Below, one piece after another: positions 23,567 through 37,840 of a stretch of 64,000 nucleotides of DNA; the stretch's first letter is position 1, and the number at the start of each line of letters is the position of its first letter. The notes below the pieces were generated by a model. The model was not told the origin of the DNA and ran no database searches. It saw nothing but the letters and a program-made list of their open reading frames with translations. Position numbers and translations under genes: made by a program. This DNA is from Niastella populi (GTDB taxonomy: Bacteria > Bacteroidota > Bacteroidia > Chitinophagales > Chitinophagaceae): contig NZ_LWBP01000078.1 of the NCBI RefSeq assembly GCF_002078015.1, positions 124,001-188,000 on the forward strand. The letters are read 5' to 3'.

Positions 23567-24169
23567 TTACTTTTTATTGGAATGTCGGTTTTGTAAAATA
23601 CTTACCACCTGTTGCAAATTATAACCTTTTACGTTAAGTAATACCAAATAATGGAAAAGCAGGTCGGCCGCCTCATTCAGGAACAGTTCTTCATTGTTGT
23701 CCTTGGCCTCGATTACCAGTTCTACTGCCTCTTCGCCTACTTTTTGGGCAATTTTATTGAGGCCTTTGTTAAAAAGCTGGCGCACATATGACTTCTCATC
23801 TTCGCTCTTTTTACGTAACTCAATGATATCCTGCAAGTAATACAAAAAGTCGTCGCTATGGTTGCGTTCGCTCCAGCAGGTATCGGCCCCGGTATGGCAG
23901 GTGGGCCCCAGGGGCTGGGCTTTTACCAGCAGGGTGTCATTGTCGCAGTCAGATAAAATTTCCTTTACCAGCAGGTGGTTGCCGCTTTCCTCCCCTTTTG
24001 TCCACAGCCTTTGTTTACTGCGGCTGAAAAAGGTAACCCTGCCTTCCGACATGGTTTTATGCAGGGCCTCTTCGTTCATAAAACCCATCATCAGTACTTT
24101 ATGGGTGTTGAAGTCCTGAATAATGGCCGGCACCAGGCCGTCGGCGTATTTTTTGAAATCAACTTTCAT
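23567..24169 (-). CDS. hisIE: Bifunctional phosphoribosyl-AMP cyclohydrolase / phosphoribosyl-ATP pyrophosphatase
   Basis: 200 residues. The HisI domain (about 1-105) contains GLVPAIIQDFNTHKVLMMGFMNEEAL, GRVTFFSRSKQRLWTKGEESGNHL, the metal-binding DCDND and CHTGADTC. The HisE domain follows with LYYLQDIIELRK, NKIAQKVGEEAVELVIEAK and LNEAADLLFHYLVLL. It catalyses steps 2 and 3 of histidine synthesis. It follows hisF after a 181-bp gap filled partly by gtcaatggtcaatg and tcaacttttcaac phrase repeats, and abuts the tlpA-like gene. Confidence 0.96.
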   Translation of the reverse strand: MKVDFKKYADGLVPAIIQDFNTHKVLMMGFMNEEALHKTMSEGRVTFFSRSKQRLWTKGEESGNHLLVKEILSDCDNDTLLVKAQPLGPTCHTGADTCWSERNHSDDFLYYLQDIIELRKKSEDEKSYVRQLFNKGLNKIAQKVGEEAVELVIEAKDNNEELFLNEAADLLFHYLVLLNVKGYNLQQVVSILQNRHSNKK

Positions 24170-24357
24170 GGTGAATGGTCAATGGTCAATGCTTGTCCGT
24201 CCGAAGCCTAAGCGAAGGAGGAGTGAATTGACCTCATTATTAAATATTTTTTTGCTGGCGTTATTATTTGTCGTTTGTTCTGCCTGCCTTTATCAACTTT
24301 ATTAACACTATCAACTTTTCAACTTCTTGTCAAACCGGTTAACCTGTCAACTAAACC
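24170..24357. repeat. Phrase repeats between hisF and hisIE
   Basis: 24170-24200 holds ggtgaatggtcaatggtcaatg, recurring at 32183-32212. 24301-24357 holds variants of tcaacttttcaacttcttgtcaaaccggttaacctgtcaac, the gttgac/gttaac family; its end overlaps the hisF stop region. Confidence 0.6.
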
Positions 24358-25112
24358 GGCCTTATTTCAATATTTTTTCCCTGCAAATATCCCTTTAATT
24401 CCGGAATAGCTATTTCTTTAAAGTGAAATATACTGGCAGCCAGGGCCGCATCGGCCTGCGCCTGTTCAAATACATCAACAAAATGCTCCATAGCGCCGCC
24501 GCCGCCGGAGGCAATTACCGGTACAGGCAACTGGGTGGCCAGCTTTCGTGTTATATCTAACGCAAACCCCGCCTTGGTGCCATCGTGGTTCATGGAGGTA
24601 AGCAAGATCTCACCGGCGCCCAGCTCAACTGCCTGTTTTGCCCAATCGAAACACCGGGCATCGGTCTTAGTACGGCCGCCGTTCAGGTACACATACCATT
24701 CGCCATCTTCTTCCTGCCGTGTATCGATGGCCAGTACCACACACTGACTGCCGAACTCCCTGGCCAGGTCATGGATCAGTTGCGGATCTTTAAAGGCCGC
24801 GGTATTGACCGATATTTTATCGGCCCCGTTCTGCAACAGCGCACTTACATCGTCAACACTGCTGATGCCGCCACCAACGGTGAACGGAATATTGATGTGG
24901 TGCGCAATCCGGTTCACCAGTTCGCGCAGGGTCTTTCGTTTTTCAACGGTGGCGGTAATGTCTAAAAACACCAGCTCATCGGCGCCCTGTTGTGCATACA
25001 ATGCACCCAACTCTACCGGATCGCCGGCATCGCGAAGATTTACAAAATTGGTCCCCTTCACCGTACGGCCGTCTTTTATATCTAAACAGGGAATGATTCG
25101 TTTACACAACAT
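24351..25112 (-). CDS. hisF: Imidazole glycerol phosphate synthase subunit HisF (cyclase)
   Basis: 253 residues, the usual length. Forms IGP and AICAR from PRFAR using ammonia from HisH. The (beta/alpha)8 barrel shows [23 protein letters not shown] with catalytic Asp11, [34 protein letters not shown] with the second catalytic Asp near 130, [17 protein letters not shown], and [14 protein letters not shown]. Separated from the hisA fusion by 252 bp that contain only phrase repeats, an unusually large gap within an operon. Confidence 0.97.
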
Positions 25113-25364
25113 TACTTTACTATTTTACTGAAACCTCAGTGGTTATTTTATATTATCGAATTCAAAATACAGCTCAAAGCCGAAGGCCTAAAGCTGAAAG
25201 CGAAAGGCAAAACAGCAACAAGCAAATACAGCTTCGCACGCGGCAACCCGAAACAAAAAACCAAGAACTTAAAACTGAGAACTATTTTCTCTTTGTCAAC
25301 TTTATCACCTCTATAAACTATATCAACTTTTCAACTCCTGTCAACTCGTCAACCCGTTAACTTG
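25113..25364. repeat. 252-bp gap between hisA and hisF, phrase repeats only
   Basis: Contains variants of aaccaagaacttaaaactgagaac near 25255-25290 (compare ttctaagttcttagttttttgttc at 37238-37270) and a long tcaacttttcaactcctgtcaactcgtcaacccgttaacttg run at 25297-25376 that extends over the 3' end of hisA. No gene. Confidence 0.6.
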
Positions 25365-26504
25365 TCAACTTTTTCCAACTCCCTTCAGATCCTCCAGCGT
25401 GATCCGGTTCTCATAAATAGCTTTCCCAACTATCGCACCGGCGCAACCGATCTCTGCTAGGGTCTCCAGGTCGGCCATAGCACTTACGCCGCCACTGGCA
25501 ATGAAATGTAAGGAAGGAAAACGCTCGATGATCTTTTTATACAGCTCAACCGACGGACCGGCCAGCAAACCATCTTTACTTACATCGGTACAAAATACCT
25601 GTTGCACACCATGATCAACATATTTTTGCAGGAAGTCATAGATCGAAATATCGGTGGTTTCGAGCCAGCCGCCTACCGTTATCTTTTCATCTTTTACATC
25701 GGCCCCCAGCAGGAATTTTTCAGCGCCGTATTGCAGTAACCATTTCACAAACTCAAATTCATTCTTTACCGCCAGGCTTCCAATGGTAGCCAACGCTGCT
25801 CCCGATTCAAATACGATGTTTACATCCTTCTCCGTTTTTATGCCACCGCCAAAATCAATAACCAGCGCGGTTTTACCGGCAATGGCCTCCAGCACTTTCC
25901 AGTTCTTTACCGCACCTGCTTTGGCGCCATCGAGGTCAACCAGGTGCAGGCGTTGCAGACCGGCGTCTTCAAACTGTTTGGCCACTTCAAGCGGGTGTTC
26001 GTTGTAAACCTTCTTTTGTTCATAATCACCCTGCGTTAACCGAACGCATTTTCCATCAATAATATCAATAGCCGGAATGATCTGCATATGCTTTTGCTGT
26101 AATAATTGCTTTTCCATTTTTATAAAATCGAGGCCGTATTTCTGCCAGGGCATTCCCACGGCCTGCATACCAAATTTTTTATAGATGGCCGTTGCGGTAA
26201 ACCGGGCATTGCACCAGATGCTTTTCTTACCATTGCGCCGCGCCCAGTTCATTACATACTGCAACAGGGTAGTTCCATATCCCCTGCCCTGCCAGTTTGT
26301 TCTGGTGGCAAATTTCCTGAACTGTACAGCGCCATCTTTTTCAAAAACGGAGATAACCGAAACCAGTTCTCCCAAATCGTACAATCCCAAATGCATTCCG
26401 GTTTCATCATCTTCCAGCTTAACAAACTCAATGGTTTCATGCGGGTACATTACCTCCCGGCGCATGGCCCATACTTCGTTTAAAGGAACAGGTTGTATCG
26501 ACAT
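25365..26504 (-). CDS. hisA: GNAT acetyltransferase fused to HisA (ProFAR isomerase)
   Basis: 379 residues in one uninterrupted frame. Residues 1-133 are a GNAT domain (LNEVWAMRREVMYPHETIEF; FRKFATRTNWQGRGYGTTLLQYV, the acetyl-CoA loop; IWCNARFTATAIYKKFGMQAVG). Residues 140-379 are a complete HisA barrel starting MQIIPAIDIIDGKCVRL (catalytic Asp147), VIDFGGGIKTEKD, ATIGSLAV, FCTDVSKDG with the second catalytic Asp307, IASGGV and AIVGKAIYE. HisA isomerises ProFAR to PRFAR. An internal ATG at 26085-26087 could start HisA alone (240 residues, the normal length). No stop separates the two parts. It starts 1 bp after the hisH stop. Confidence 0.93.
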   Translation of the reverse strand: MSIQPVPLNEVWAMRREVMYPHETIEFVKLEDDETGMHLGLYDLGELVSVISVFEKDGAVQFRKFATRTNWQGRGYGTTLLQYVMNWARRNGKKSIWCNARFTATAIYKKFGMQAVGMPWQKYGLDFIKMEKQLLQQKHMQIIPAIDIIDGKCVRLTQGDYEQKKVYNEHPLEVAKQFEDAGLQRLHLVDLDGAKAGAVKNWKVLEAIAGKTALVIDFGGGIKTEKDVNIVFESGAALATIGSLAVKNEFEFVKWLLQYGAEKFLLGADVKDEKITVGGWLETTDISIYDFLQKYVDHGVQQVFCTDVSKDGLLAGPSVELYKKIIERFPSLHFIASGGVSAMADLETLAEIGCAGAIVGKAIYENRITLEDLKGVGKS

Positions 26505-26505
26505 G

Positions 26506-27153
26506 TTACAGGTTCAAAAAGTTTTTCAGGATCTGTTCTCCCGCTTTGGCGCTTTTCTCGGGGTGAAACTGTACGCCATAGAAATTACCCTTGTGCAGGG
26601 CAGCGCTATATGGTTGTATATAATCTGCCGTGGCAATTGTATGTTCGCCCAGGGCAGCATAATAGCCATGCACAAAATAACAATAGCTGTTCACCGGCAG
26701 TTCTTTGAACAGGTCAGTTTTCAGGTTGAAGATATTGTTCCAGCCAATCTGCGGCACTTTTAGCCGTTCTACAGCATCTTCGCCTGCGTGGGAATGGCCT
26801 CCCACCGCCCCCCCCTGCTCACCCCCGGTGGGGGGGATAAATTTCCTAACGTGCTCATCAAATATATTGAGGCACGTAGTATCATTCTCTTCACTGTAAG
26901 CGCACATCAGCTGCATACCGAGGCAAATGCCCAGTACCGGCTGCTGCAGGTCTTTTATCAGCGTATCGAGTTTGTGCTCCTTCAGGTACCGCATGGCGCT
27001 GCTGGCCTCGCCCACACCCGGGAAGATCACCTTTCCCGCACTTTTAATTTTTTCGTAATCATCAGTAACCAATGCATTCACCCCGATACGTTCCAGCGCA
27101 TACAGTACCGACTGAATATTTCCTGCATTGTATTTTATTATTACCAGGTCCAT
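26506..27153 (-). CDS. hisH: Imidazole glycerol phosphate synthase subunit HisH (glutaminase), with insertion
   Basis: 215 residues; the family is usually about 195-205. Class I glutamine amidotransferase feeding ammonia to HisF. Catalytic Cys77 (GICLGMQ), His197 and Glu199 (VQFHPEKS) are present, with KYNAGNIQSV and FPGVGEASSAM. Between HVRKF and LKVPQIGWNN (about residues 106-130) there is a Gly/Pro-rich segment (IPPTGGEQGGAVGGHSHAG) that the family lacks; the DNA there is dominated by C- and G-runs forming inverted repeats. Starts 12 bp after trpA, so it is the junction of the trp and his halves. Confidence 0.95.
   Translation of the reverse strand: MDLVIIKYNAGNIQSVLYALERIGVNALVTDDYEKIKSAGKVIFPGVGEASSAMRYLKEHKLDTLIKDLQQPVLGICLGMQLMCAYSEENDTTCLNIFDEHVRKFIPPTGGEQGGAVGGHSHAGEDAVERLKVPQIGWNNIFNLKTDLFKELPVNSYCYFVHGYYAALGEHTIATADYIQPYSAALHKGNFYGVQFHPEKSAKAGEQILKNFLNL
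26764..26838. repeat. In-frame GC-run insertion within hisH
   Basis: Plus-strand C8 run and G7 run with CCACC/GGTGG arms (cccaccgcccccccctg... cccccggtggggggg) and a second inverted repeat GTGGGA-ATGGCC-TCCCAC. Composition differs sharply from the flanking hisH sequence. Confidence 0.6.
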
Positions 27154-27165
27154 TTGTTATTTATC

Positions 27166-27936
27166 TCAGCTTTTAATATCAGTTATAAACTTTTTGATTG
27201 TGCCCTCCACATCGGGAGTATTCTCCAGCGCTTTAATGAACGCCGTTCCGATAATTGCCCCGTTGGCATGGCTACAGGCCTGCTGAAAAGTTGGTTTGTC
27301 TTTTATACCAAAACCCACCAGCACGGGATTCTTCAACTGCATCTTTTGCAGGCGCTGTAAATAATTATCAACCGCATTCATATCCTTGTCTTTCCCCGTG
27401 GTTGAAGATGACGATACCGCATACAGGAAACCCGTGCTCAGGCTATCGAGCCTGCGAATACGTTCTTCCGACGTTTCGGGCGTTACTAGGAAAATGAAAT
27501 CCAACCCATAACGCTGCATAATGGGACCGTACTCCGTTTCAAATTCATATTCGGGCAGATCGGGAAGGATCAGTCCGTCAACCGGGGCATCAGCCGCATG
27601 CTGGCAAAACTTTTCAAACCCGTATTGTAAAACAGGGTTCATGTAGCCCATTAAAATAACAGGTACATATACCTGCTTGCGGAAATCTCTCAGCTGTTCA
27701 AATAACCTGGCAATGGTCATTCCGTTGGCCAGCGCTTTAGAGCTGCTTGCCTGTATCACAGGGCCATCGGCCAGCGGATCGCTATACGGCATTCCCAGTT
27801 CGATCATATCAACACCGCTCTCCTGCAATGCTTCCATTACCGGTACCGTGCTGTTCAGCTGCGGATAGCCGGCGGTGCAATACACATTGAGGATACCATT
27901 TTGTTTACGCTTAAAAAGTTCATTTATCCGATTCAT
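27166..27936 (-). CDS. trpA: Tryptophan synthase alpha chain
   Basis: 256 residues. Cleaves indole-3-glycerol phosphate to indole and glyceraldehyde-3-phosphate, passing indole to TrpB. Visible: VYCTAGYPQLNSTVPVMEAL, MIELGMPYSDPLADGPVIQ (catalytic Glu47 and Asp57), ILMGYMNPVLQYGFEKFC, GLILPDLP, DFIFLVTPETSEERI, GFLYAVSSSSTTG, VLVGFGIKDKPTF and GAIIGTAFIKAL. Lies 95 bp after trpB; that gap contains a ttgccagtttcgggttaccag phrase repeat. Confidence 0.97.
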   Translation of the reverse strand: MNRINELFKRKQNGILNVYCTAGYPQLNSTVPVMEALQESGVDMIELGMPYSDPLADGPVIQASSSKALANGMTIARLFEQLRDFRKQVYVPVILMGYMNPVLQYGFEKFCQHAADAPVDGLILPDLPEYEFETEYGPIMQRYGLDFIFLVTPETSEERIRRLDSLSTGFLYAVSSSSTTGKDKDMNAVDNYLQRLQKMQLKNPVLVGFGIKDKPTFQQACSHANGAIIGTAFIKALENTPDVEGTIKKFITDIKS

Positions 27937-28031
27937 ATTAATTGCCAGTTTCGGGTTACCAGTTACCAGGGACTCAAATTATTACAGATCAAACATTGGC
28001 GGGCGTTCCGCATTAAAGCCCGGTAACAGTT

Positions 28032-29279
28032 TTATTGTATGTTCATCGCTTTCATGTACGTGGCCATATCCTTATCGCCTCTTCCGCTCAGGCAAACCAC
28101 CACTGTTGAATCTTTGGTGAATTTTGCATTTGCCGGTACAGGCGCTTCCGATGGCTTGGGCGATTCCGGTTGAAGGAATTCAAGGCTCGCCAATGCGTGT
28201 GAGCTTTCCAGTGCCGGAATAATTCCTTCCTTTTTGGCCAGGTTAAAGGCGGCTTCCAGCGCCTGTTCATCTGTAGCGCTCAGGAAGGCGCCGCGCCGGC
28301 TATCGAACAAATGCGCATGCAGGGGACCGATGCCGGGGTAATCGAGACCGGCAGAGATACTATGCGGTTCTACTACCTGGCCGTCTTCCGTTTGCATTAC
28401 CAGGCTTTTGCTGCCGTGTAATACACCGGGTTTGCCCAATTGGGTGGTGGCTGCACTGAGACCGCTATGCACGCCATTGCCGGCCGCTTCTATGGCTACC
28501 AGTTGAACCGTTGGTTCTTCGAGGAAATGATAGAAAGCGCCGGCTGCATTACTGCCGCCGCCCACACAGGCCAGTACATGCGTAGGTAATTCGCTGCCTG
28601 TTTTTTCTTTTAACTGCCACCTGATCTCTTCGCTGATCACGCTTTGAAAACGCGCTACCATGTCGGGATACGGGTGCGGCCCTACCACACTGCCGATGAT
28701 ATAATGCGTATCTACGGGGTTATTGATCCAGTCGCGAATAGCTTCGTTGGTAGCGTCTTTCAGCGTTTTGCTGCCGCTGGTAGCGGGGATCACCGTAGCG
28801 CCCAGCATTTTCATGCGGGCTACGTTCGGCGCCTGGCGCTCTATGTCTTTTTCGCCCATATACACAATACACTCCACGCCTTTCAGCGCACATACGGTAG
28901 CGGTAGCCACGCCATGTTGCCCGGCCCCGGTTTCGGCAATGATCCGTTTTTTGCCCAACCGTTCAGCCAGCAATATCTGCCCGATGGTGTTGTTCACTTT
29001 ATGTGCGCCGGTATGGCAAAGGTCTTCCCGCTTCAGGTAAATATTGGTGCCATATTGTTTGCTCAACCGCTGTGCGAAATACAGGGGCGTAGGCCGGCCT
29101 GCATAATCGTGCAGCAGCGATCTGAATTCTTTCTGAAAGGCAGCATCGTAAATGATGTCGAGGTATTTCGATCTCAGTTCTTCCACATTGCGGTGCAGCA
29201 TTTCGGGAATGAATGCACCACCGAACTTTCCATAATACCCCTGTGCATTGGGTTGCTGATATGTTGTTGTCGTCGTCAT
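28032..29279 (-). CDS. trpB: Tryptophan synthase beta chain
   Basis: 415 residues, about 15-20 longer than usual. Condenses indole and serine to tryptophan with PLP bound to Lys94 (REDLCHTGAHKVNNTIGQ). Other motifs: YYGKFGGAFIPEML, ETGAGQHGVATAT, CVGGGSNAAGAFYHFL (phosphate-binding GGGSNA), SAGLDYPGIGP, and VVVCLSGRGDKDM near the C-terminus. A Pro-rich stretch (QPESPKPSEAPVPANAKF, about residues 370-388) sits where most relatives have a short loop, a third low-complexity insertion in this operon. Starts 11 bp after the CTP-synthase-like gene. Confidence 0.97.
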   Translation of the reverse strand: MTTTTTYQQPNAQGYYGKFGGAFIPEMLHRNVEELRSKYLDIIYDAAFQKEFRSLLHDYAGRPTPLYFAQRLSKQYGTNIYLKREDLCHTGAHKVNNTIGQILLAERLGKKRIIAETGAGQHGVATATVCALKGVECIVYMGEKDIERQAPNVARMKMLGATVIPATSGSKTLKDATNEAIRDWINNPVDTHYIIGSVVGPHPYPDMVARFQSVISEEIRWQLKEKTGSELPTHVLACVGGGSNAAGAFYHFLEEPTVQLVAIEAAGNGVHSGLSAATTQLGKPGVLHGSKSLVMQTEDGQVVEPHSISAGLDYPGIGPLHAHLFDSRRGAFLSATDEQALEAAFNLAKKEGIIPALESSHALASLEFLQPESPKPSEAPVPANAKFTKDSTVVVCLSGRGDKDMATYMKAMNIQ

Positions 29280-29290
29280 TTTTAAAACTT

Positions 29291-30019
29291 TTAATTGCTT
29301 ACGCCCTGTGCAACCTTTTTGTTGCTGTGGTGTTCCATGGCGTCAAGTAAGGCCAGTAATATAGGATGCGGTTTTTCATAACCTGAATTCACCTGCGGAA
29401 CAAAAAGCGTGGCAAGGTAGAACTGTTCGTTCAACTCAAGTACTCTTACCTCACCATTCAAATCGCTCCCTGTTATCAAAAAACCTGCTTCATGTATCTG
29501 CCGCTGATATTCAGGGTTAAGACCGAAATTGCAATAATAATTTTCGGTCATGACATGGGTCTTCATAATAGTATAGATCATCGAATCCCTGTCTGTTATT
29601 CTTATCTGTAGCCGCTGCCCTTTCAATGAACAGCTTAACGGATTTATAATCAGCTTCGATGCGTAAGGATTTGTTTCCGCATGCTCCGCATCTGTAATGC
29701 CGAGTACATTCCGTGCAAATTCGATGATCATGTGCTGAAACCCACCGCAAGTACCCAACGTAGGTATTTTATGAGTACGTGCGTATTCTATTATCTTCAG
29801 CACACCCGACATGCTTTTGTACGGACTGCCCGGCGCTATCAGCAATCCGTGGTACGAACGAATGATGGTCTCAAATTCAGGTTCTATCCTGTCAGTATCT
29901 ACCCATTCGTACTGAAATGGTTTACCAAACTTTCCGGCAGCGTGATCAAATGCTTCGTTGGTAGCAATATGCGTATCATTCGAAGCAACAAAATCACCCA
30001 TGATGCCCAATTTTATCAT
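29291..30019 (-). CDS. CTP synthase C-terminal region-related (seleno)protein family, Cys form
   Basis: 242 residues resembling the glutaminase domain of CTP synthase: IKLGIMGDFVASNDTH, HGLLIAPGSPYKSMSGVLKIIEYAR, and GTCGGFQHMIIEFARNVLG. The nucleophile-elbow Cys is present, where some relatives in this family carry selenocysteine. The usual HPE catalytic pair appears replaced: the aligned C-terminal segment reads YLATLFVPQVNSG. An amidotransferase reaction is therefore doubtful and a redox role possible (inference). It is embedded between the Pat-like GNAT and trpB, 11 bp before trpB. Confidence 0.8.
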   Translation of the reverse strand: MIKLGIMGDFVASNDTHIATNEAFDHAAGKFGKPFQYEWVDTDRIEPEFETIIRSYHGLLIAPGSPYKSMSGVLKIIEYARTHKIPTLGTCGGFQHMIIEFARNVLGITDAEHAETNPYASKLIINPLSCSLKGQRLQIRITDRDSMIYTIMKTHVMTENYYCNFGLNPEYQRQIHEAGFLITGSDLNGEVRVLELNEQFYLATLFVPQVNSGYEKPHPILLALLDAMEHHSNKKVAQGVSN

Positions 30020-30076
30020 AGTATGAGGTTTAATTGCCTTCTTAGGCGTGCCACAGTTCGAAAGTGCACACCTTTG

Positions 30077-30595
30077 TTATCCGTCAACCGGTTGTTCCGG
30101 CGTCTTTAGCAATAACTGCATAAACGTAAGATCGAGCCAGCGGCCAAATTTGTAACCTACCTGTTTAAACTGTCCGGCTTCGGTAAAACCAAAACTACGG
30201 TGCAGGTTAATGCTTACTTCATTGGTAGCATCTATGCCGGCGATAATGGCATGCAGTTCCAGCTGTTCAGCGGCTTCTATTAACGGTTCAAGTAATTTCT
30301 TACCAATGCCTTTTCCGCGTTGATCAGCCGCCACATAGATCGAGTTCTCCACGGAATATTTATACGCTGCCCAGGCACGCCACGGACCAATGGAGCTAAA
30401 GCCCACCACCCTGCCATTTTCTTCAGCCACAAACACCGGGTAGCCCTGCGCTTCTTTTATCCGGAACCATTGTTTACGCATTTCAAGGGTATGCGGTTCG
30501 TAATCGTACACCGCCGTAGTGTTGATGATTGCGTCGTTATAAATTTCCAGTATGGCCGGAAGGTCTGTTTCAAGAGCGGCCCGTATCTGTATCAT
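30077..30595 (-). CDS. Phosphinothricin/methionine-sulfone-type GNAT acetyltransferase
   Basis: 172 residues. Pattern of the Pat/MddA-like group: MIQIRAALETDLPAILEIYNDAIINTTAVYDYEP, FVAEENGRVVGFSSIGPWRAWAAYKYSVENSIYVAADQRGKGIGKKLLEPLIEAAE (acetyl-CoA loop RGKGIG), INLHRSFGFTEAGQFKQVGYKFGRWLDLTFMQ. These enzymes acetylate glutamate/methionine analogues such as phosphinothricin. It sits inside the trp operon between trpF and the CTP-synthase-like gene; no link to tryptophan synthesis is known. Confidence 0.92.
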   Translation of the reverse strand: MIQIRAALETDLPAILEIYNDAIINTTAVYDYEPHTLEMRKQWFRIKEAQGYPVFVAEENGRVVGFSSIGPWRAWAAYKYSVENSIYVAADQRGKGIGKKLLEPLIEAAEQLELHAIIAGIDATNEVSINLHRSFGFTEAGQFKQVGYKFGRWLDLTFMQLLLKTPEQPVDG

Positions 30596-30598
30596 AGT

Positions 30599-30700
30599 AT
30601 AAGATTTAGATTTTGAGACTTAGCGATTTTGAGATTTAGCAAATTGTCAGACTTCCCGGCTGTATTGAAATCACAAAATCTATAAATCTTAAAATCAGAA
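30599..30700. repeat. Phrase repeat 'gattttgagatttag'
   Basis: 112-bp trpF-GNAT gap filled with aagatttagattttgagacttagcg and, after a spacer, the complementary sense aaatcacaaaatctataaatcttaaaatc. Recurs at 36058-36144 and 44528-44666 with the same two-arm layout. Confidence 0.7.
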
Positions 30701-30707
30701 ACTGTAT

Positions 30708-31346
30708 TTAATACCGGCTGTTCAATTGCGTTACAAACTCTTTTATTTTGGCCATATCCTTTATACCCGGACTAACCTCGAACTTACTATTGATGTCTAC
30801 CGAGAATAGCGCTTTACCTATGGGCAATTTGGCAAATTCGTTCAGTTCATCCTCATCACCCGGCTCTATGCCGCCGCTCAGGAAAAAGGGTTTGCCAATG
30901 GCTGCGTCTTTCAGCATGTTCCAGTTGAACTTTTTCCCGGTTCCGCCATACCCCGCGCCCATGGTATCGAACATGAACATATCGCACATATCCATATAAG
31001 GCTTTACCATCCATTCAATATTATCGTTTTCACTAATGCGGAAGGCCTTTACCACCGAAACATAATCAGCGATCTTCTCACAATACTTAGGCGTTTCATC
31101 CCCATGTAACTGAACCATATGCAAGCGGCATTCATCAACCATATGCAACACTTCCTCAATAGAGGCATTTACAAAAACGCCCACCTTGTTGATACTGTTC
31201 TCTTTCCTGATCTGACTGGTGGTGAGGCCCTTGAAAACGTAGCGCGGACTTTTAGGATAAAAAATAAATCCCGCAAAGGTAACGCCCATTGGGCCCAGTT
31301 GCTCCACCTGTTCAGGAAGTGTCATACCGCAAACTTTTACTCGCAT
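30708..31346 (-). CDS. trpF: Phosphoribosylanthranilate isomerase
   Basis: 212 residues. Third step of tryptophan synthesis, an Amadori rearrangement on a TIM barrel. Motifs: MRVKVCGMTLPEQV with catalytic Cys6, GFIFYPKSPRYV, KVGVFVNASIEEV, MVQLHGDETPKYC, MFDTMGAGYGGTGKKFNW with the general-acid Asp, FLSGGIEPGD and SVDINSKFEVSPGIKD. Since a separate HisA is present, no PriA-type dual function is needed. Confidence 0.97.
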   Translation of the reverse strand: MRVKVCGMTLPEQVEQLGPMGVTFAGFIFYPKSPRYVFKGLTTSQIRKENSINKVGVFVNASIEEVLHMVDECRLHMVQLHGDETPKYCEKIADYVSVVKAFRISENDNIEWMVKPYMDMCDMFMFDTMGAGYGGTGKKFNWNMLKDAAIGKPFFLSGGIEPGDEDELNEFAKLPIGKALFSVDINSKFEVSPGIKDMAKIKEFVTQLNSRY

Positions 31347-31395
31347 AGCGTTGTCAGATTTTAAGTGTTAGGGTTATGGCCATGCAATCGCTATT

Positions 31396-32181
31396 TTACT
31401 TCGATTCCAGTTGCGCTATGAATTTATGAAATGCCTCGCCTGGATGAGCTTCTTTCATAAAATTTTCTCCAATTAAGAACCCACGAAAGTCATGTTCCTT
31501 AAAAAGCCTGATATTGGCAACGGAGCTGATGCCGCTTTCCGCTATTTTTATTTTATCAGCAGGGATCCGTTCCGCCATCCGCAGGCTGCGGTCAATATCT
31601 ACTTCAAATGTTTTGAGGTTCCGGTTGTTGATGCCTACCAGTTTCGTTTCGTCGCAAATATGTTCCAGCTCGTCTTCGGCATGCAGTTCGAGCAACACTT
31701 CCAGTTGTAAAGAGGCGGCAAAGGTCGCCAGCCGTTTTACTTCGGCCGGGGTTAAACAGGCCGCGATAAGCAATATCACATCGGCGCCCATAGCCCGGGC
31801 CTCGGCGATCTGGTATTCATCTATCATAAAATCCTTACGCAGAACAGGCACCTGGTTCACCCTGGCCCTGATGAGATCGGCTGTGCTTCCGCCAAAGAAC
31901 AGTTCATCGGTGAGCACCGATAAACCCGAAGCCCCAAAGCGGGCATAGGCTGAAGTTACCTCTACTACATCGGCCGCACCATTGATGATGCCTTTGCTGG
32001 GCGATTTACGTTTGAACTCGGCTATTATCCCCGTTTTTGCATCATCGAGCAGGAACTGCGCAAGTGACAATACCGGCCGGTTGAAAAAAGCCTGTTGCTC
32101 CAATTCGCTTACCGGAGTTTGTTTTTTGCGTTCGGCTACTTCGGTTCTTTTGTGTTCTATTATTTTATCGAGAATGTTCAT
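31396..32181 (-). CDS. trpC: Indole-3-glycerol-phosphate synthase
   Basis: 261 residues. Closes the indole ring from CdRP. Motifs: MNILDKIIEHKRTEVAERK, GIIAEFKRKSPSKGII (phosphate/substrate Lys), LSVLTDELFFGGS, VPVLRKDFMIDEYQIAEARAMGADVILLIAA, LELHAEDELEH, LVGINNRNLKTFEVDI, IAESGISSV and FLIGENFM. Monofunctional; trpF is separate downstream (49-bp gap). Confidence 0.97.
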   Translation of the reverse strand: MNILDKIIEHKRTEVAERKKQTPVSELEQQAFFNRPVLSLAQFLLDDAKTGIIAEFKRKSPSKGIINGAADVVEVTSAYARFGASGLSVLTDELFFGGSTADLIRARVNQVPVLRKDFMIDEYQIAEARAMGADVILLIAACLTPAEVKRLATFAASLQLEVLLELHAEDELEHICDETKLVGINNRNLKTFEVDIDRSLRMAERIPADKIKIAESGISSVANIRLFKEHDFRGFLIGENFMKEAHPGEAFHKFIAQLESK

Positions 32182-32182
32182 C

Positions 32183-32294
32183 GTGCATGGTCAATGGTGA
32201 ATGGTGAATGCTTCAACATCAGCTTCCCTCTCCCATTTAAATTTTAATATTCGGTTTCTGTATTCCATTAGCTAATTAGCACATCGGCTAATTA
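32183..32294. repeat. Phrase repeats between trpD and trpC
   Basis: The 110-bp gap has gtgcatggtcaatggtgaatggtgaatg (32183-32212) and ccattagctaattagcacatcggctaatta (32264-32294), two families found elsewhere in the window. Confidence 0.6.
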
Positions 32295-33284
32295 CTGCAA
32301 TGCAACCAACTTCTTCAATGCCTCATTCGCCCTGCCACTCTCCAGACTCTCTACTGCTTTCGCATAGGCATCGTCATAGGTTTTGTAATTTCCGGTGCAA
32401 TGCAGGGCCATGGCCGCGTTGGCCAGTACAACCGCATTCTGCGCCCAGGTGCCTTCACCCTTTAATATTCTGGTGAAGATCTTAGCAGCTTCTTCCACCG
32501 TGTTGCCGCCATAGATATCAGTGGGGTTCACCATTCGTTTTCCGAGTTGCTCGGGCGTCATTATTTTTTCGCCGTTATTGGTGATCACCTTGGTATCGTT
32601 GGTAAGCGATATTTCATCGTACCCGTCGAGGCTATGAATAATGGTGAATGCTTTATCTGATAATTGTAACAGGTAATTGTAAATACGCGCCATCTCCAGG
32701 TTATATACCCCTATCAGTTGAAACGGCGGGAAGGCCGGGTTCACCATGGGGCCGAGCATGTTGAAGAACGTGCGCATGCCGAGGTTCTTCCTGATAGGCC
32801 CAACAGTTTTTAATGCGGGGTGAAACAGGGGCGCATGTAAGAAACAGATATTGGCTTCATCCACTTCTTTCTTCAGCCGGCCTGGGTCATTCTTGAATTT
32901 GTATCCCAACTGCTCCATTACGTTTGAAGCGCCACTGATCGACGAGGCTCCGTAGTTTCCATGCTTGGCCACTTTTTGACCGGTACCGGCCACTATAAAG
33001 CAACTGAGGGTAGAAATATTGAAGGTATTTTTTCCATCACCACCGGTACCCACGATATCGATAACGGGGAAACCGTTCAGGTCGACCTTTACGCACAACT
33101 CCAGCAGGGCTTCCTGAAATCCCTGCAGTTCTTCAATGGTTACACTGCGCATGAGGTAAACAGTCATAAAGGCCGTTACTTCATGTTCGTTATATACACC
33201 TTTGCCAATATTCATTAAAACTTCCTTTGCCTGTTCGCGGCTCAGGGTTTTATGTTCGAAAAGGTATTGTAATATCTTTTTCAT
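32292..33284 (-). CDS. trpD: Anthranilate phosphoribosyltransferase
   Basis: 330 residues. Transfers phosphoribose from PRPP to anthranilate. Motifs: DIVGTGGDGKNTFNIST (PRPP-binding GTGGD), KVAKHGNYGASSISGASNVMEQLGYKF, FLHAPLFHPALKTVGPIRKNLGMRTFFNMLGPMVNPA and YNLEMARIYNYLLQ. Monofunctional; the glutaminase is encoded by trpG just upstream. Starts 82 bp after trpG; the gap holds tattccattatcacattatcgaatta phrases (33321-33367). Confidence 0.97.
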   Translation of the reverse strand: MKKILQYLFEHKTLSREQAKEVLMNIGKGVYNEHEVTAFMTVYLMRSVTIEELQGFQEALLELCVKVDLNGFPVIDIVGTGGDGKNTFNISTLSCFIVAGTGQKVAKHGNYGASSISGASNVMEQLGYKFKNDPGRLKKEVDEANICFLHAPLFHPALKTVGPIRKNLGMRTFFNMLGPMVNPAFPPFQLIGVYNLEMARIYNYLLQLSDKAFTIIHSLDGYDEISLTNDTKVITNNGEKIMTPEQLGKRMVNPTDIYGGNTVEEAAKIFTRILKGEGTWAQNAVVLANAAMALHCTGNYKTYDDAYAKAVESLESGRANEALKKLVALQ

Positions 33285-33320
33285 ATTGCTTATGAATGAT
33301 GAACCATTTTTTATATTCTG

Positions 33321-33367
33321 TATTCCATTATCACATTATCGAATTATCACATTATCACATTAGCTAT
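33321..33367. repeat. Phrase repeat 'cattatcacattatcgaattatcac'
   Basis: Five units of attatcac variants abutting the trpG stop codon. Confidence 0.7.
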
Positions 33368-34044
33368 TATGCCTTCAGCCAGTTGCGTAAAATATCTTCC
33401 CCCTTTGGCGTCAACACACTTTCGGGGTGAAACTGCACGCCCTGTACATCATACTGCCTATGCTGCAATGCCATGATGAAATTATTTGCATCGCGGGCGG
33501 TGATCTCCAGTTCTTCAGGAAATCCTTCTTCACTTACCACCCAGCTATGATACCGGCCTACTTCGAATTCGTTGGGTAAACCTTCAAACAATGAATTTTT
33601 GATGGCGGTTGGCACCTGCTCTATTTCAGTGGCTGTTGCCGGTTGCCGGTTAGCAGTTGCCGGTTTCCTTTTTACGTTTGCCGATTCACCTTTCCCATTT
33701 TCCGGTTTACGGCCGGTCAACTGTATTGGCGTAGCCACGCCATGATACACCGTACTGAGGTTAACCAGCTTTCCGCCAAATGCCTGCCCAATGGCCTGGT
33801 GGCCCAAACAAACACCAAGTATTGATTTGCTGGCCGCATATTCTTTTATCAGCGGCAGCAACAGTCCGGCTTCTTCAGGAATACCGGGCCCTGGCGACAA
33901 AATGATCTTATCGTAATCCTTTACTTTTTCCAGCGGCAGCTGGTCGTTGCGGTGAACTTCTACTTTTTGATGCAATATCTTTTCAACCAGGTGTACCAGG
34001 TTGTAGGTAAAAGAGTCGTAGTTATCAAAAACAAGGATCTTCAT
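33367..34044 (-). CDS. trpG: Anthranilate synthase component II (glutaminase), with a repeat-derived insertion
   Basis: 225 residues from the ATG at 34042-34044 (MKILVFDNYDSFTYNLVHLVE); relatives are about 190. Supplies ammonia to TrpE. Motifs: LSPGPGIPEEAG, LGVCLGHQAIGQAFGG (nucleophile Cys79), YHSWVV, and GVQFHPESVLTPKG (His206, Glu208). Residues about 112-146 (RKPENGKGESANVKRKPATANRQPATATE) form a polar, low-complexity insertion between the HGVATPIQ and AIKNSLFEGLP segments; its DNA matches the ccggttgccggtt phrase family of intergenic gaps. The insertion is in frame and avoids all catalytic motifs. Confidence 0.95.
   Translation of the reverse strand: MKILVFDNYDSFTYNLVHLVEKILHQKVEVHRNDQLPLEKVKDYDKIILSPGPGIPEEAGLLLPLIKEYAASKSILGVCLGHQAIGQAFGGKLVNLSTVYHGVATPIQLTGRKPENGKGESANVKRKPATANRQPATATEIEQVPTAIKNSLFEGLPNEFEVGRYHSWVVSEEGFPEELEITARDANNFIMALQHRQYDVQGVQFHPESVLTPKGEDILRNWLKA
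33607..33711. repeat. Phrase-repeat insertion inside trpG
   Basis: Plus strand reads gctgttgccggttgccgg, then ttagcagttgccggtttcc and further ttgccgattc/ttttccggttta variants, the same vocabulary as intergenic 8278-8345, 20930-20965, 27944-27970 and 41425-41455. Its 105 bp correspond to the extra residues of TrpG. Confidence 0.65.
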
Positions 34045-34106
34045 GTTCAAGTATGTTATGGTGCTGAACGGAGAACGATGCTAGCTGTACTTCAGCCGGG
34101 TACCGT

Positions 34107-35531
34107 TTAAAATATTTCCTGGGCAAACACGATGGCTTTTTTCAACGCGCCCAGTTTGTTGTTTACTTCCTGTAATTCGCTTTCGGGTTTGCTGGCGGCC
34201 ACCACACCGGCACCGGCCTGGTATATGAGTTTGTTATGGCGGCTCATAAACGTGCGGATCATGATGGCATGATTGCACTGGCCGTCGAAACCCATAAACC
34301 CGATGGCGCCACCATAGTAACTTCTGGCGGTTGGCTCAAAAGCATCGATGAGCTCCATGGCCTTGAACTTGGGTGCGCCGCTCAACGTACCGGCGGGAAA
34401 GGTTTTCGCCAGTAATGCAAACGGGTTGCTGCCCGTGCGCACTTTGCCGCTTACCTCACTTACCAGGTGTATTACGTGCGAATAATATTGTACTTCGCGA
34501 TAGTGCTCTACTTTTACTTCATCGCACAGGCGGCTGAGGTCGTTTCGCGCCAGATCTACCAGCATTACATGCTCGGCATTTTCCTTGGCATCGTGTAACA
34601 GGCGTTCCGCTTCACGCTGGTCGGTTTCATCATCACCGGTGCGTTTGAAGGTGCCCGCTATAGGGTGAACCACCGCTTTGCCGTTCTGCATAATAAGCTG
34701 GGCTTCGGGCGAAGAACCCATCAGTTTATAATCGCCATAATCAAAGAAGAACAGGTATGGTGATGGGTTGATGCTGCGTAACGCGCGATATACCGCAAAT
34801 TCATCACCGGTAAAACCCTGTTCAAAACACCGGCTCAGCACTATCTGGAACACATCGCCCCGCATACAGCTCTGAATGCCTTTCTTCACCATATCGGTAT
34901 AATCGGTATCGGTCATGTTCGATGCCTCAGGCCCCTTTGTTTTGAAAGGATACACAGGCACATCTTTACTGCGGATGAGCGATTCCACCACGGCCAGCTC
35001 GCTTTCGACACCCGGCATGGTATTTTCGCAAATGAACAGTTCGTCTTTATGATGATTGATCGCAATTACATACTGGTACAGGCGATACCGCATAAGGGGA
35101 ATTACCGGTTGCCCGTTGGGCGATTTGCGTTCAACGCCCAGTTGAATGGTGTCGAAGAACTGAACGGCGTCGTACGTAGTGTAACCGTACAGCCCCTGGG
35201 CAAATTTTGTTTCTTTTCCACCGGGAGCAGCCTCGAAGCGCTGCATAAATTCCCACAGTTTTTCAGGTACTTCGGCGCTGTTTGAGATGGCGGCTTTTTC
35301 GGGAGGGAGGCCGGGTAATTTGAATTCGATGCTTTTGGCGGAAGTGATCTCTATGCCGGCGATGGCATTGATGCAGATGAAGGAGTAGCTGTTGTCGGCG
35401 GCATGGTGGTCGGTACTTTCGAGGAGCACCGTATCGCGAAAACGATCGCGCACCCGGAGGTAAATGCCCACCGGCGTGAATACATCAGCCAGCAGCTTTT
35501 TACAATTTGTAGTAATATTTATCTTTTTCAT
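34107..35531 (-). CDS. trpE: Anthranilate synthase component I
   Basis: 474 residues. Makes anthranilate from chorismate with ammonia from TrpG. Motifs of the chorismate-binding domain: FQIVLSRCFEQGF, YLFFFDYGDYKLMGSSPEAQL, HPIAGTFKRTGDDETDQREAERLL, EHVMLVDLARNDLSRLC, YSHVIHLVSEVSGKV, FPAGTLSGAPKFKAMELIDAFEPTARSYYGGAIGF and YQAGAGVVAASKPESE. The N-terminal region contains LLESTDHHAADNSYSFICI, close to the LLES feedback-inhibition motif, so tryptophan inhibition is likely. First structural gene of the operon, 22 bp downstream of the attenuator terminator's T-run. Confidence 0.97.
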   Translation of the reverse strand: MKKINITTNCKKLLADVFTPVGIYLRVRDRFRDTVLLESTDHHAADNSYSFICINAIAGIEITSAKSIEFKLPGLPPEKAAISNSAEVPEKLWEFMQRFEAAPGGKETKFAQGLYGYTTYDAVQFFDTIQLGVERKSPNGQPVIPLMRYRLYQYVIAINHHKDELFICENTMPGVESELAVVESLIRSKDVPVYPFKTKGPEASNMTDTDYTDMVKKGIQSCMRGDVFQIVLSRCFEQGFTGDEFAVYRALRSINPSPYLFFFDYGDYKLMGSSPEAQLIMQNGKAVVHPIAGTFKRTGDDETDQREAERLLHDAKENAEHVMLVDLARNDLSRLCDEVKVEHYREVQYYSHVIHLVSEVSGKVRTGSNPFALLAKTFPAGTLSGAPKFKAMELIDAFEPTARSYYGGAIGFMGFDGQCNHAIMIRTFMSRHNKLIYQAGAGVVAASKPESELQEVNNKLGALKKAIVFAQEIF

Positions 35532-35552
35532 TGAGCATAGCCCTTAAAAAAT

Positions 35553-35631
35553 TCAAAAAAAAACCCCGACGGTAACGTCGGGGCCTGAATATTATGTTTT
35601 AATAAAACATCAATAGCAGCTTACAAGCCCC
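35553..35631 (-). promoter_or_regulatory. trp operon transcription attenuator (terminator and antiterminator)
   Basis: On the minus strand the terminator is CCCCGACG-TTAC-CGTCGGGG (35564-35583), 8 perfect pairs, followed by nine T (35555-35563). The antiterminator pairs GGGGCTTG (35631-35624, overlapping the last sense codons of the leader peptide) with CAGGCCCC (35587-35580), which overlaps the terminator's first arm: 8 pairs with one G-U. A third hairpin (ATGTTTT-ATT-AAAACAT, 35594-35610) lies between the arms. A ribosome finishing the leader covers the GGGGCTTG arm and favours termination; a ribosome stalled at the Trp codons leaves it free to pair. This is the logic of classical trp attenuation. 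Confidence 0.88.
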
Positions 35632-35683
35632 TTTTAGAGTTTGTATGCCACCACCAATGATTATTTTGTAATTGCTTTTTCAT
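35621..35683 (-). CDS. trpL: trp leader peptide with three consecutive Trp codons
   Basis: ATG at 35681-35683 to TAA at 35621-35623, 20 codons. After MKKQLQNNH come three successive TGG codons (35648-35656), then HTNSKRGL and stop. Three adjacent Trp codons are very unlikely by chance and sit 35 nt ahead of the terminator arm. Distance to the trpE start is about 90 nt. Too short to be found by gene callers. Confidence 0.9.
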   Translation of the reverse strand: MKKQLQNNHWWWHTNSKRGL

Positions 35684-35719
35684 TACGTTTACAAAAGTGC
35701 TTTGCAAAAATGAATTGAC

Positions 35720-35727
35720 CAAATTTA
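35720..35727 (-). promoter_or_regulatory. Probable trp promoter -7 box
   Basis: Minus strand TAAATTTG matches the Bacteroidota TAnnTTTG element, about 37 nt before the leader ATG, giving a 5' UTR near 30 nt. No clear -33 TTTG is seen, so confidence is moderate. Confidence 0.45.
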
Positions 35728-36167
35728 TTTTGTTGTAACTGAAGGTATTTTTATCAGGATGCAGCCGGGTGTCGAAAATATTTACAATTCAAAGCCAATC
35801 TTTAGAAATCCTATAATAAAACCGGTTATGTTTGGTAATTGATATACTTCTTACATACGGATCGGTTAAGGAAGGTAACCCTGTATATGGATGTTTCTTT
35901 TCTTTCAATTTCTTCTTATCCTTAACGTACTATTTAAATAAAAATGCGAATTTTAGCCGTCAATTGCCGTTGGCCTGGAAGAACCTGATGGTAAACAATA
36001 TACAGCCACGCAACAACCCAAAATACCTCTAAACCGCTTGCCGGCATGAAGTAATTTCGAGATCTCGGGATTTGGAGATTTTTAGATTTGTCGGAAGGCT
36101 AAATCATAAGAAATCGCAAAATCACTACATCTCACAATCAGAAATTGATTTATTATTCCTATTCATT
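35728..36167. repeat. Gap upstream of the trp operon, with 'gagatttttagatttg' repeats
   Basis: No gene is supported between the trp promoter region and the small GNAT. Positions 36058-36144 hold the agatttttagattt...aaatcgcaaaatcac two-arm phrase repeat. Confidence 0.55.
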
Positions 36168-36446
36168 ATGGTAATACAACACAAACAGTTAAATGGGAAA
36201 GGTATGTTCTATGTAGGGCAGGATGGCGCCATCCTTGCCGAAATGGTGTATACTATGGCCCCTAACAAAATGATCATCGAGCATACTGAAGTAGATGATT
36301 CCCTCAGCGGAAAAGGCGTTGGCAAACAAATGGTACAAACCGCTGTTGAATATGCCCGCACCCATAACATCAAGATCGTTCCGCTCTGCCCTTTTGCGAA
36401 ATCGGTATTGGATAAAATGCCTGAGTGGCAGGATGTGCTGGTGTAA
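36168..36446 (+). CDS. Small GNAT-family acetyltransferase (YjdJ/NATD1-like)
   Basis: 92 residues from the ATG at 36168 (MVIQHKQLNGKGMFYVGQDG); an in-frame ATG at 36072 lies in repeat DNA and is rejected. Minimal single-domain GNAT with AEMVYTMAPNKMIIEHTEVDDSLSGKGVGKQMVQTAVEYARTHNIKIVPLCPFAKSVLDKMPEWQDVL, the pattern of the short YjdJ/NATD1 group. Substrate unknown. Not part of the trp operon (opposite strand). Confidence 0.9.
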   Translation: MVIQHKQLNGKGMFYVGQDGAILAEMVYTMAPNKMIIEHTEVDDSLSGKGVGKQMVQTAVEYARTHNIKIVPLCPFAKSVLDKMPEWQDVLV

Positions 36447-36447
36447 C

Positions 36448-36503
36448 AGGTTAACAAGTTGACGAGTTAACTTGTTAACCTGTTAACCCGTCAACATTTT
36501 CAA
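36448..36503. repeat. Palindromic phrase repeat 'gttaacaagttgacgagttaac'
   Basis: Fills the whole 58-bp space between the convergent GNAT and pdxJ stops with caggttaacaagttgacgag, ttaacttgttaacctgttaacccgtcaac. The two halves are complementary, so a long hairpin is possible. Confidence 0.7.
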
Positions 36504-36504
36504 C

Positions 36505-37221
36505 TTATTTCAACTGTCTTTTATACAACTGAATGGTATTTTCATACCCGAGGTACAAGGCGTCGCTTATCAACGCATGCCCTATAGATACCTCCAGCAA
36601 ACCCGGAATATTTTGTGAGAAATAAGCCAGGTTGTTCAGGTCGAGGTCGTGACCGGCATTGATGCCCAGCTTTAGTTCATTGGCTCTTTTGGCAGCCGCT
36701 ACATAACCGGCAATGGCCTTTTCTTTACCATTCGCATATTCGCGGGCGTAGCCTTCGGTATACAATTCTATACGGTCGGTTCCGGTTTCGGCAGCGCCAT
36801 TCACCATTTCCACAACCGGGTCAACAAAGATCGATACGCGAATACCGGCCTTTTGAAATACCTGAATCATTTCCCGCAGGTAATCGCGGTGTTTAATGGT
36901 ATCCCAGCCATGGTCGCTTGTCAACTGTCCTTCTGCATCGGGTACCAGCGTTACCTGGTGGGGTTGCGTTTGCAGCACCAGGTCAACAAACTTCTGCTCA
37001 CTGCAATTTCCTTCTATATTGAACTCGGTAGTGATGATCTTTTTTATCTCACGCACATCGGCATAACGGATATGCCGCTCATCGGGCCGGGGATGCACGG
37101 TTACGCCATCGGCGCCGAACCGCTGCGCATCGATGGCCGCTTTTACTACATCGGGATTATTACCACCGCGGCTATTGCGCAACGTGGCAAATTTGTTGAT
37201 GTTTACACTCAGCTTTGTCAT
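36505..37221 (-). CDS. pdxJ: Pyridoxine 5'-phosphate synthase
   Basis: 238 residues from the ATG at 37219-37221 (MTKLSVNINKFATLRNSRGG). Condenses 1-deoxyxylulose-5-phosphate with 3-amino-2-oxopropyl phosphate in de novo vitamin B6 synthesis. Motifs: NINKFATLRNSRGGNNPDVVKAA, GADGVTVHPRPDERHI, FNIEGNCSEQKFVDLVLQTQPHQVTLVPDAEGQLTSDHGW, RVSIFVDP, GTDRIELYTEGYAREY and GINAGHDLDLNNLAYF. Convergent with the small GNAT. Confidence 0.97.
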   Translation of the reverse strand: MTKLSVNINKFATLRNSRGGNNPDVVKAAIDAQRFGADGVTVHPRPDERHIRYADVREIKKIITTEFNIEGNCSEQKFVDLVLQTQPHQVTLVPDAEGQLTSDHGWDTIKHRDYLREMIQVFQKAGIRVSIFVDPVVEMVNGAAETGTDRIELYTEGYAREYANGKEKAIAGYVAAAKRANELKLGINAGHDLDLNNLAYFSQNIPGLLEVSIGHALISDALYLGYENTIQLYKRQLK

Positions 37222-37365
37222 GCCCAAAATTAGTTATAAGTTCTTAGTTTTTTGTTCTAAGTTCTTTTAATTGGCACTCGCTATTAATAGCTGTCGGGTT
37301 CCGCGGCGGCGTGTATTCGCATTCGCTTTCGGCTTTCGGCTTTCGGCTGTATTCCGCGTTAAGCA

Positions 37366-37393
37366 TAAAAAAAGAGCTGTTTTGCAACAGCTC
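37366..37393 (-). terminator. Terminator of the first CTD-like mini-protein gene
   Basis: Minus strand GAGCTGTT-GCAA-AACAGCTC then TTTTTTT, 30 bp after the stop at 37424. Upstream of it, 37238-37352 carries ttctaagttcttag and ttcggctttcggctttcgg phrases. Confidence 0.85.
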
Positions 37394-37423
37394 CTCGTTG
37401 GGGTTAGGGGTTCTCTATATTTT

Positions 37424-37840
37424 CTAGCCTTTTGAAATATTTGTACTGTATAAAATGTCTCCTTCCAGGTCTACGATGTCGAGCGAATAAACACCAGTTG
37501 GTAAAAATTCAACTTCACTTATGTTGGTTATGTTAATTCCTTTTACCAGAAACCAACTGAACATTTTTACGATCTTATCGTCCTCATCGAACATCCGCAC
37601 TATAACATGTTTGCCCTGCACACAGGTTACGTCGAGCGTTATGGAGGTGAAGAAAGGGTTGGGGCGGACAACAACTTTAGGGATCATAATTTCTGAATTT
37701 GGGGCTTCTGAAGAACCACGAGCTTCATTTTGTGAAGTCTGGTCAATCTGCAATATCCTGTTCAGCTTTTGCCTCATTGATACAGCGTTTTTCTCCGCCT
37801 TGTGCTCTTCTGTGTTATGACTATGGCTTAATGGTATCAC
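37424..37840 (-). CDS. Stand-alone T9SS type A sorting-domain-like protein (copy A)
   Basis: 138 residues. The C-terminal 85 residues (VVVRPNPFFTSITLDVTC, HVIVRMFDEDDKIVKMFSWFLVKGINITNISEVEFLPTGVYSLDIVDLEGDILYSTNISKG) follow the layout of the T9SS C-terminal sorting domain: PNP start, central D..GK-like turn, LPTGVY, and a terminal Lys. But there is no signal peptide and no cargo domain; the N-terminal 50 residues are polar (MRQKLNRILQIDQTSQNEARGSS). Clearly paralogous to the next gene. As made, it could not enter the periplasm by the Sec route. Role unknown. Confidence 0.6.
   Translation of the reverse strand: MIPLSHSHNTEEHKAEKNAVSMRQKLNRILQIDQTSQNEARGSSEAPNSEIMIPKVVVRPNPFFTSITLDVTCVQGKHVIVRMFDEDDKIVKMFSWFLVKGINITNISEVEFLPTGVYSLDIVDLEGDILYSTNISKG

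Follow-up and report, generated by a model that had tools for sequence, protein, structure and literature searches.

A stretch of 64,000 nucleotides from the soil bacterium Niastella populi, called the window here, contains an operon in which genes of the tryptophan pathway are followed by genes of the histidine pathway. How is such an operon controlled, and does its control region read one amino acid or both? An earlier note on this DNA had claimed a ribosome-mediated trp attenuator upstream of trpE. We consider it likely that the region is a ribosome-mediated transcription attenuator of the trp-his operon, in which three hairpins (1:2, 2:3 and 3:4) would exclude one another and a His codon is the proposed second control codon. 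The evidence comes from sequence: the open reading frame, the conserved 1:2 and 3:4 pairings, the conserved place of strand 2, the content of the operon and the link between His codon and his genes. From these we infer the start site, termination in the cell and the responses to Trp and His.

All features concerned lie on the minus strand (Table 1). A 20-codon leader with Trp-Trp-Trp, an antiterminator (GGGGCTTG with CAGGCCCC) overlapping its last sense codons and a perfect 8-bp terminator with nine T had already been described here, and these are borne out together with their coordinates. The antiterminator consists of 8 pairs, one of them G-U. Because CCCC is common to CAGGCCCC and the 5' arm of the terminator, the two structures are mutually exclusive, as had also been stated. 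What was missed is a third structure, the 1:2 hairpin, which is included in the minimum-energy fold of the window RNA and in which UUGU and GGGG of strand 2 have ACAA and CUCU as partners. The 149-nt leader RNA folds at -44.6 kcal/mol against -27.6 kcal/mol in dinucleotide shuffles (z -4.7, 0 of 200). The Trp run has a His codon on either side (HWWWH), and the distance from the leader stop to the trpE start is 89 nt only.

Table 1. Features of the leader region and of the trp-his operon, in positions of the window.
Feature	Position	Strand	Evidence or remark
Bacteroidota-type promoter: -33 TTTG (35723-35720), 20 nt, -7 CACTTTTG (35699-35692)	35692..35723	-	two-box pattern
Leader peptide ORF MKKQLQNNHWWWHTNSKRGL, 20 codons, and stop TAA	35621..35683	-	ATG at 35683; TAA 35623-35621
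Trp codons TGGTGGTGG (control codons; strand 1)	35648..35656	-	read from sequence; kept in relatives
His codon CAT directly 3' of the Trp run; proposed second control codon	35645..35647	-	his-gene association; correlated evolution
1:2 protector hairpin	35608..35659	-	Trp codons pair with nucleotides 3' of the stop codon
Strand 2 GGGGCTTG, within the last sense codons of the leader	35624..35631	-	GGGG placement fixed in relatives
Small stem ATGTTTT / AAAACAT in the antiterminator loop	35594..35610	-	
Strand 3 CAGGCCCC	35580..35587	-	antiterminator with strand 2, or CCCC pairs with strand 4
Intrinsic terminator 3:4 CCCCGACG-TTAC-CGTCGGGG and nine T	35555..35583	-	perfect 8-bp stem; arms 35583-35576 and 35571-35564; T run begins 35563
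trpE	34107..35531	-	best family TIGR00564, 390.6 bits, under the cut-off of 517.7
trpG, trpD, trpC, trpF, ArsN1-like GNAT, CTP-synthase-C-terminal-like protein, trpB, trpA	27166..34050	-	
hisH, GNAT-hisA, hisF, hisIE (histidine half of the operon)	23567..27153	-	

TrpE relatives were drawn from 10 genomes of the genus (including its own), from 244 genomes of the family (237 with a match, 30 loci used) and from named genomes (80 of 415 loci), Niastella and Longitalea being the nearest named relatives. In total 116 loci (36 + 80) were read upstream of trpE, some of them identical records (L036 = L078). A WWW leader precedes trpE in 115 of the 116, a set biased towards likeness because the closest TrpE relatives were chosen. 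The sole locus without such a leader (L057) ends 65 nt before trpE at a contig end, and in L112 the leader sits further upstream. The loci hold 88 distinct elements, of which 52 are at most 90% identical to each other (alignment A1).

In all 52 non-redundant Chitinophagaceae relatives the 1:2 pairing is supported, the fold being worse when the stretch after the stop is replaced by mononucleotide shuffles of itself (z -3.6 on average and below -1 in every case). The control-codon nucleotides UGGUGGUGGCAU pair with nucleotides after the stop at 9.4 of 12 positions, against 5.8 in controls. In the relatives UGGUGGUGGCAU pairs directly 3' of the stop (often with AUGCUAUUACUG) and the following codons pair with strand 2, so that a single long hairpin covers the GGGG. 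Taken jointly, 1:2 and 3:4 are paired in 90.9% of cells against 36-51% in slid versions, and the 3:4 terminator by itself is paired in 96.5%. Since UGG is fixed, the partner side of the Trp codons alternates between C and U or between A and G; double-sided changes in 1:2 and 3:4 are seen in 4 pairs, which is not above the shuffles (108 of 500 reach 4). In all 88 distinct relatives the GGGG of strand 2 is found 16-19 nt past the third TGG, with 7-9 nt left to the stop, and it occurs in three codon registers (for example AGG GGC, AAG GGG and TTC GGG GTG). Such a fixed place across registers points to selection on nucleotides and distance. The 2:3 antiterminator pairs in 81% of cells of the relatives, and covariation gives it no support (140 of 500 shuffles reach its score) because its columns hardly vary. 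A check of conservation in relatives, as the earlier note had proposed, thus speaks for the Trp codons, for 1:2 and for 3:4, with covariation silent on the antiterminator.

According to the proposed mechanism, RNA polymerase would start about 4 nt upstream of the leader ATG. When Trp-tRNA is short, the ribosome would stall on the Trp codons and strand 1 would be kept out of the 1:2 hairpin; the GGGG would then be free, 2:3 would form in place of the terminator, and trpEGDCFBA-hisHAFIE would be transcribed. If the leader is translated to its stop, which lies just past strand 2, the ribosome would cover strand 2 and the terminator would form. The terminator is expected to form as well when no ribosome has been loaded, with 1:2 hiding the GGGG. 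A stall at the His codon would also leave the GGGG free, and His shortage would in that case open an operon that encodes half of the His pathway. When the A site holds the His codon, the GGGG lies 13-16 nt ahead, a distance at which the usual bacterial ribosome footprint should leave it free; lack of His would thus also open the operon for HisH, HisA, HisF and HisIE. The leader is probably a Trp-plus-His sensor, in which one His codon follows three Trp codons.

The -7 promoter box that had been noted upstream of the leader is found again as part of a two-box promoter, recognized by pattern, with TTTG at -33. The pattern searched was TTTG, 19-21 nt, then xAnnTTTG or TxnnTTTG. Of 47 non-redundant relatives, 44 have such a promoter before the leader ATG; 200 mononucleotide shuffles gave 0.4 on average and 2 at most. 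The distance from box to ATG is 7 nt in 30 of these 44; in the window the -7 box ends 8 nt upstream of the ATG. Two flavobacterial studies place the -7 box at -12 to -5 (PMC6847099, PMC9723704), and on that basis we set the start 5 nt past the box (around 35687). The leader mRNA should then begin about 3-4 nt upstream of the ATG (about 4 nt in the window), and with about 7 nt between the end of the promoter and the ATG it would be almost leaderless. Leaderless mRNAs account for 5.5% in F. psychrophilum (PMC9723704), and 5' UTRs below 10 nt are put at about 3.7% for B. thetaiotaomicron (PMC7366714); of the leaders predicted in F. johnsoniae, 87% exceed 10 nt (PMC6847099). Among other Bacteroidia leaders the box-to-ATG distance is 4-20 nt where both boxes are present (20 of 37) and at most 10 nt in 13 of these 20, a spread which suggests that the short form is common, not general. 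The almost leaderless leader mRNA that the promoter implies looks new. As far as we know, Bacteroidota lack Shine-Dalgarno sites, and a near-absent 5' UTR would bear on how ribosomes can be loaded fast enough for attenuation without them.

Trp leader attenuation was described in the earlier note as best known from Proteobacteria, but in Bacteroidia it is no rarity. A Trp-rich ORF lies within 700 nt of trpE in 126 of 141 sampled Bacteroidia regions (4.0 in shuffles), and a Trp leader together with a terminator is present in 122 of the 141, against 0.0 in shuffles. An ORF with WW or WxW also stands before trpE in each of 39 additional Bacteroidia loci, among them L174 of family f1. What is a textbook device thus becomes a general rule: most sampled Bacteroidia trp operons carry leader peptides. 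Six loci were read outside the class, of which four have WWW, one has only a far-upstream WW ORF that we take as chance, and one has none. Vitreschak and others (2004) reportedly listed Bacteroidetes/Chlorobi among the groups with candidate attenuators. The leader RNA varies between families while the Trp run stays, and L174 has a different RNA behind its WWWH. Within the phylum, then, the mechanism either has a long history or has been renewed many times.

Two further gauges of spread or pairing proved less useful. A covariance model of the window's type (R1), run on 296 phylum genomes, matches 57 at E <=0.001. Above 50 bits there are just 7 matches, every one from family f1, and the 30-40 bit matches among those listed are taken as chance. 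As R1 is strong in f1 alone, the reach of the mechanism is shown by reading the regions upstream of trpE and not by R1. An ungapped antiterminator test in other families, limited to the 5' arm and loop of the terminator, failed for most (7 of 39 at p <=0.05); with the whole hairpin 22 of 40 reach 0.05. The test is weak, since no more than 19 of 52 members of the window's own family pass it at that level. Among individual loci, L312, L314, L316 and L317 (family f68) have Trp-Arg-Trp leaders before trpE, such as IWRWQVSESVWL. The trp leaders of L216 and L218, outside class Bacteroidia, show long complementarity to the terminator (for example GGACCGGTGGGCG/CGCCCACCGGTCT).

A search of Rfam with window positions 30000-40000 and E up to 1 gave 4 matches, none of them a trp leader (RF01692 or the enterobacterial Trp leader). 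RF01692, Bacteroid-trp, matches in 0 of 19 near relatives (including G000) and in 13 of 148 phylum genomes, all of family f12. Like the window it is a trp leader before trpE in Bacteroidota with a WWW ORF (15 to 18 codons in its members) and a terminator downstream. It differs in that His follows the Trp run in none of 13 members, whereas it does so in the window. The layout is different as well: in 10 of the 12 members examined, TCGTGA of the stop region can pair with the terminator's loop and 3' arm (RF01692-type leaders of this layout: L177-L180, L182, L184, L188, L190, L194 and L198), and in the window the base of the 5' arm is concerned. Bacteroid-trp is given as a probable cis-regulatory RNA of Bacteroidetes by Weinberg 2010 (PMC2864571) and is likened to the E. 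coli trp leader in a study of F. psychrophilum (PMC6414381); leader attenuation upstream of amino-acid operons is inferred for Flavobacterium psychrophilum in PMC9723704. Given RF01692 and these flavobacterial leaders, the kind is already known, and RF01692 is the one found named among the phylum's trp leader forms. The leader of the window belongs to a new sequence family of this known kind. Naville and Gautheret describe leader peptide systems as known only from Proteobacteria and Actinobacteria, with bacilli added (PMC2965389).

The design resembles that of E. coli trpL, which has a short leader, tandem Trp codons and three alternative hairpins. Strand 2 of E. coli starts about 17 nt past the last Trp codon and lies after the stop. 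In window-type leaders it starts at a similar distance (16-19 nt), but inside the last sense codons and before the stop. The window further differs in its three Trp codons with flanking His, in a predicted 5' UTR of about 4 nt and in the his genes of its operon. The ilvGMEDA and thr leaders of enterobacteria are multivalent. They have, as is proposed for the window, control codons for more than one amino acid that match the operon products, whereas the window-type leaders have only one or two His codons.

That the operon also carries his genes had been observed before, and the observation is weightier than it seemed, as the His codon tracks these genes. We scored a trpE region as his+ if at least two his genes lie downstream. 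In 116 regions a leader was read and the his status was clear. The residue after the Trp run is His in all 47 that are his+ and in 18 of the 69 that are his-. For leaders with a terminator score of at least 35 the counts are 47/47 and 16/65. The difference is seen within family f1 (41/41 against 9/17, eight of the 17 having Gln, Ser or Tyr instead) and outside it (6/6 against 9/52). Where the gap between the last trp and the first his start is at most 1.3 kb, His is present in 39 of 39. The position is specific, with no His at +2 to +7 in his+ leaders; at -1 of the Trp run His occurs in 13 of 47 his+ and 1 of 69 his- regions (raw counts, kinship ignored). His+ leaders use CAT in 40 cases and CAC in 7, so the residue, and not the RNA stem alone, seems to be kept. 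His+ families that differ in RNA and use either codon are exemplified by WWWHTEANQLAG, WWWHSNSFQTRM, WWHAGKNTFAV and WWWHGVKLKSL. Within genus g120 two his+ members have WWWH, and WWWS is found in L302, where the nearest his match is 15 kb off. In a first sample (40 trpE regions and the window, spanning up to about 15 kb downstream of trpE) the script read His in 12 of 12 his+ leaders, and a 13th, L267, has His too.

The 116 regions are what is left of 141. Eleven in which less than 9 kb follows trpE were dropped (four with His, two with Leu, one with Gln and four without a leader), as were three with a single his match: L301 and L355 have His and a his gene right after trpA, and L252 has Arg with a match 14.6 kb away. 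A further 11 his- regions were set aside because the script detected no Trp leader in them, be it absence or a miss (L299, L303, L304, L310, L315, L318, L321, L324, L325, L326 and L329). L357 was scored his+ with his genes from 7.8 kb past the trpA start, and L302 his- with its his match at 15.2 kb. G092 (L266, WWWQ) and G443 (L302, WWWS) were chosen for their known leader, all other regions by spread. Leaders were known beforehand for 29 regions outside f1 and at least 22 of 61 in f1; 9 of 38 Bacteroidia loci outside f1 were left out of the region sample, and G443 was added later.

A TrpE tree of the 116 regions requires no fewer than 15 changes of the his genes and 16 of the His codon. In a test of correlated evolution the dependent model beats the independent one (LR 37.6, p 1.3e-7), with the caveat that some of its rates lie at bounds and that the TrpE tree was quickly built. 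When his was simulated on this tree (35-60 his+ tips), no run lacked his+ tips without His (0 of 845; mean 11, lowest 1). A test of independent pairs on well-supported branches gave 6 pairs, of which about 3.2 agree and 0 are opposed (median p 0.25, not significant).

On balance we favour a two-input attenuator that reads Trp and His in keeping with the genes present in the operon and sits on an almost leaderless mRNA, a minority form in the phylum. Its second codon would be retained as long as the operon has his genes and would drift to Gln, Ser, Tyr and others once they leave. Judged from these genomes, the control codons match the encoded pathways, which is the mark of a multivalent attenuator. 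No report of a joint Trp and His leader was found in the open-licence papers searched, and the link of the Trp-His leader to operon content looks new. Should the His codon prove to be a second input, one could read from a leader peptide what its operon makes, and single codons should be won or lost when operons fuse or split. Nature would also have provided an experiment on the number of codons a sensor needs, in the form of a control codon that tracks operon content. Phe, Leu and Gln after the Trp run were followed as pathway hints: five ORFs of the own genome that lie near pheA, hisG and a homoserine dehydrogenase gene were used as tblastn queries, and they gave one match in one region and no systematic pattern.

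The main competitor is an attenuator that senses Trp only. Here the His codon would be a passenger that the 1:2 stem and common descent have preserved, and it would carry no histidine signal. In the 88 close relatives the residue after WWW is His in 85, Gln in 2 and Pro in 1, and all 85 use CAT, which lies in the 1:2 stem, so part of the conservation can indeed be structural. That 18 of 69 his- regions retain His and that the independent-pairs test is not significant fit a passenger as well. However, a passenger codon sits poorly with its presence in every his+ region, seven times as CAC, with an association that holds both within f1 and outside it, where the RNA differs, and with the strong preference for the correlated-evolution model; nor does it fit the f1 regions without his genes, close to half of which carry Gln, Ser or Tyr. 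We therefore regard Trp-only sensing as unlikely, though worth keeping in mind.

Two other accounts were weighed. Control might follow another attenuation route, through a regulatory protein or through translation of trpE, with the leader ORF secondary; the leader stop so close to the trpE start would suit this, but the Trp codons, their spacing to strand 2 and the 1:2 and 3:4 pairings are all conserved and a nine-T terminator stands between leader and trpE, which renders this route very improbable. A plain terminator preceded by a chance Trp-rich ORF could serve any upstream transcript, and pdxJ lies upstream on the same strand (36505-37227). Its probability is negligible in view of the WWW leader before trpE in nearly every close-relative locus, the joint occurrence of Trp leader and terminator across the sampled regions and the fold energy of the leader RNA. 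The claim of ribosome-mediated trp attenuation is well supported by the conserved Trp codons and stems.

The gene order of the operon is trpE, G, D, C, F, B, A, followed by hisH, hisA, hisF and hisIE. In the same genome hisG lies apart (L219, C227) and has its own His-rich leader, MTIFTHTHHHHTYLSR, with a terminator; it could perhaps be a His attenuator of the same design as the trp leader, and both halves of the His pathway might then respond. The leader MTIFTHTHHHHTYLSR is followed by AAGGGCTTACC-GCT-GGTAAGCCCTT and a T run, and by eye GGTAGGC over its last codon and stop could pair with GCTTACC. Upstream of the Thr, Phe and branched-chain genes located in the own genome, a simple scan for leaders gave one candidate only. 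In L228 a GTG-start ORF with VVVVI and a terminator lies about 1.4 kb before an ilvD-like gene.

The trp part of the operon includes an ArsN1-like GNAT (window 30077-30595, minus strand) and a CTP-synthase-C-terminal-like protein (29291-30019, minus strand), the latter not found downstream of trpE in the 40 other regions examined. HisA (residues 140-372) shares one frame with a GNAT-like N-terminal part of about 138 residues (25365-26504, minus strand), and a match to this GNAT-like part is also found upstream of hisA in L259, L260, L261 and L263.
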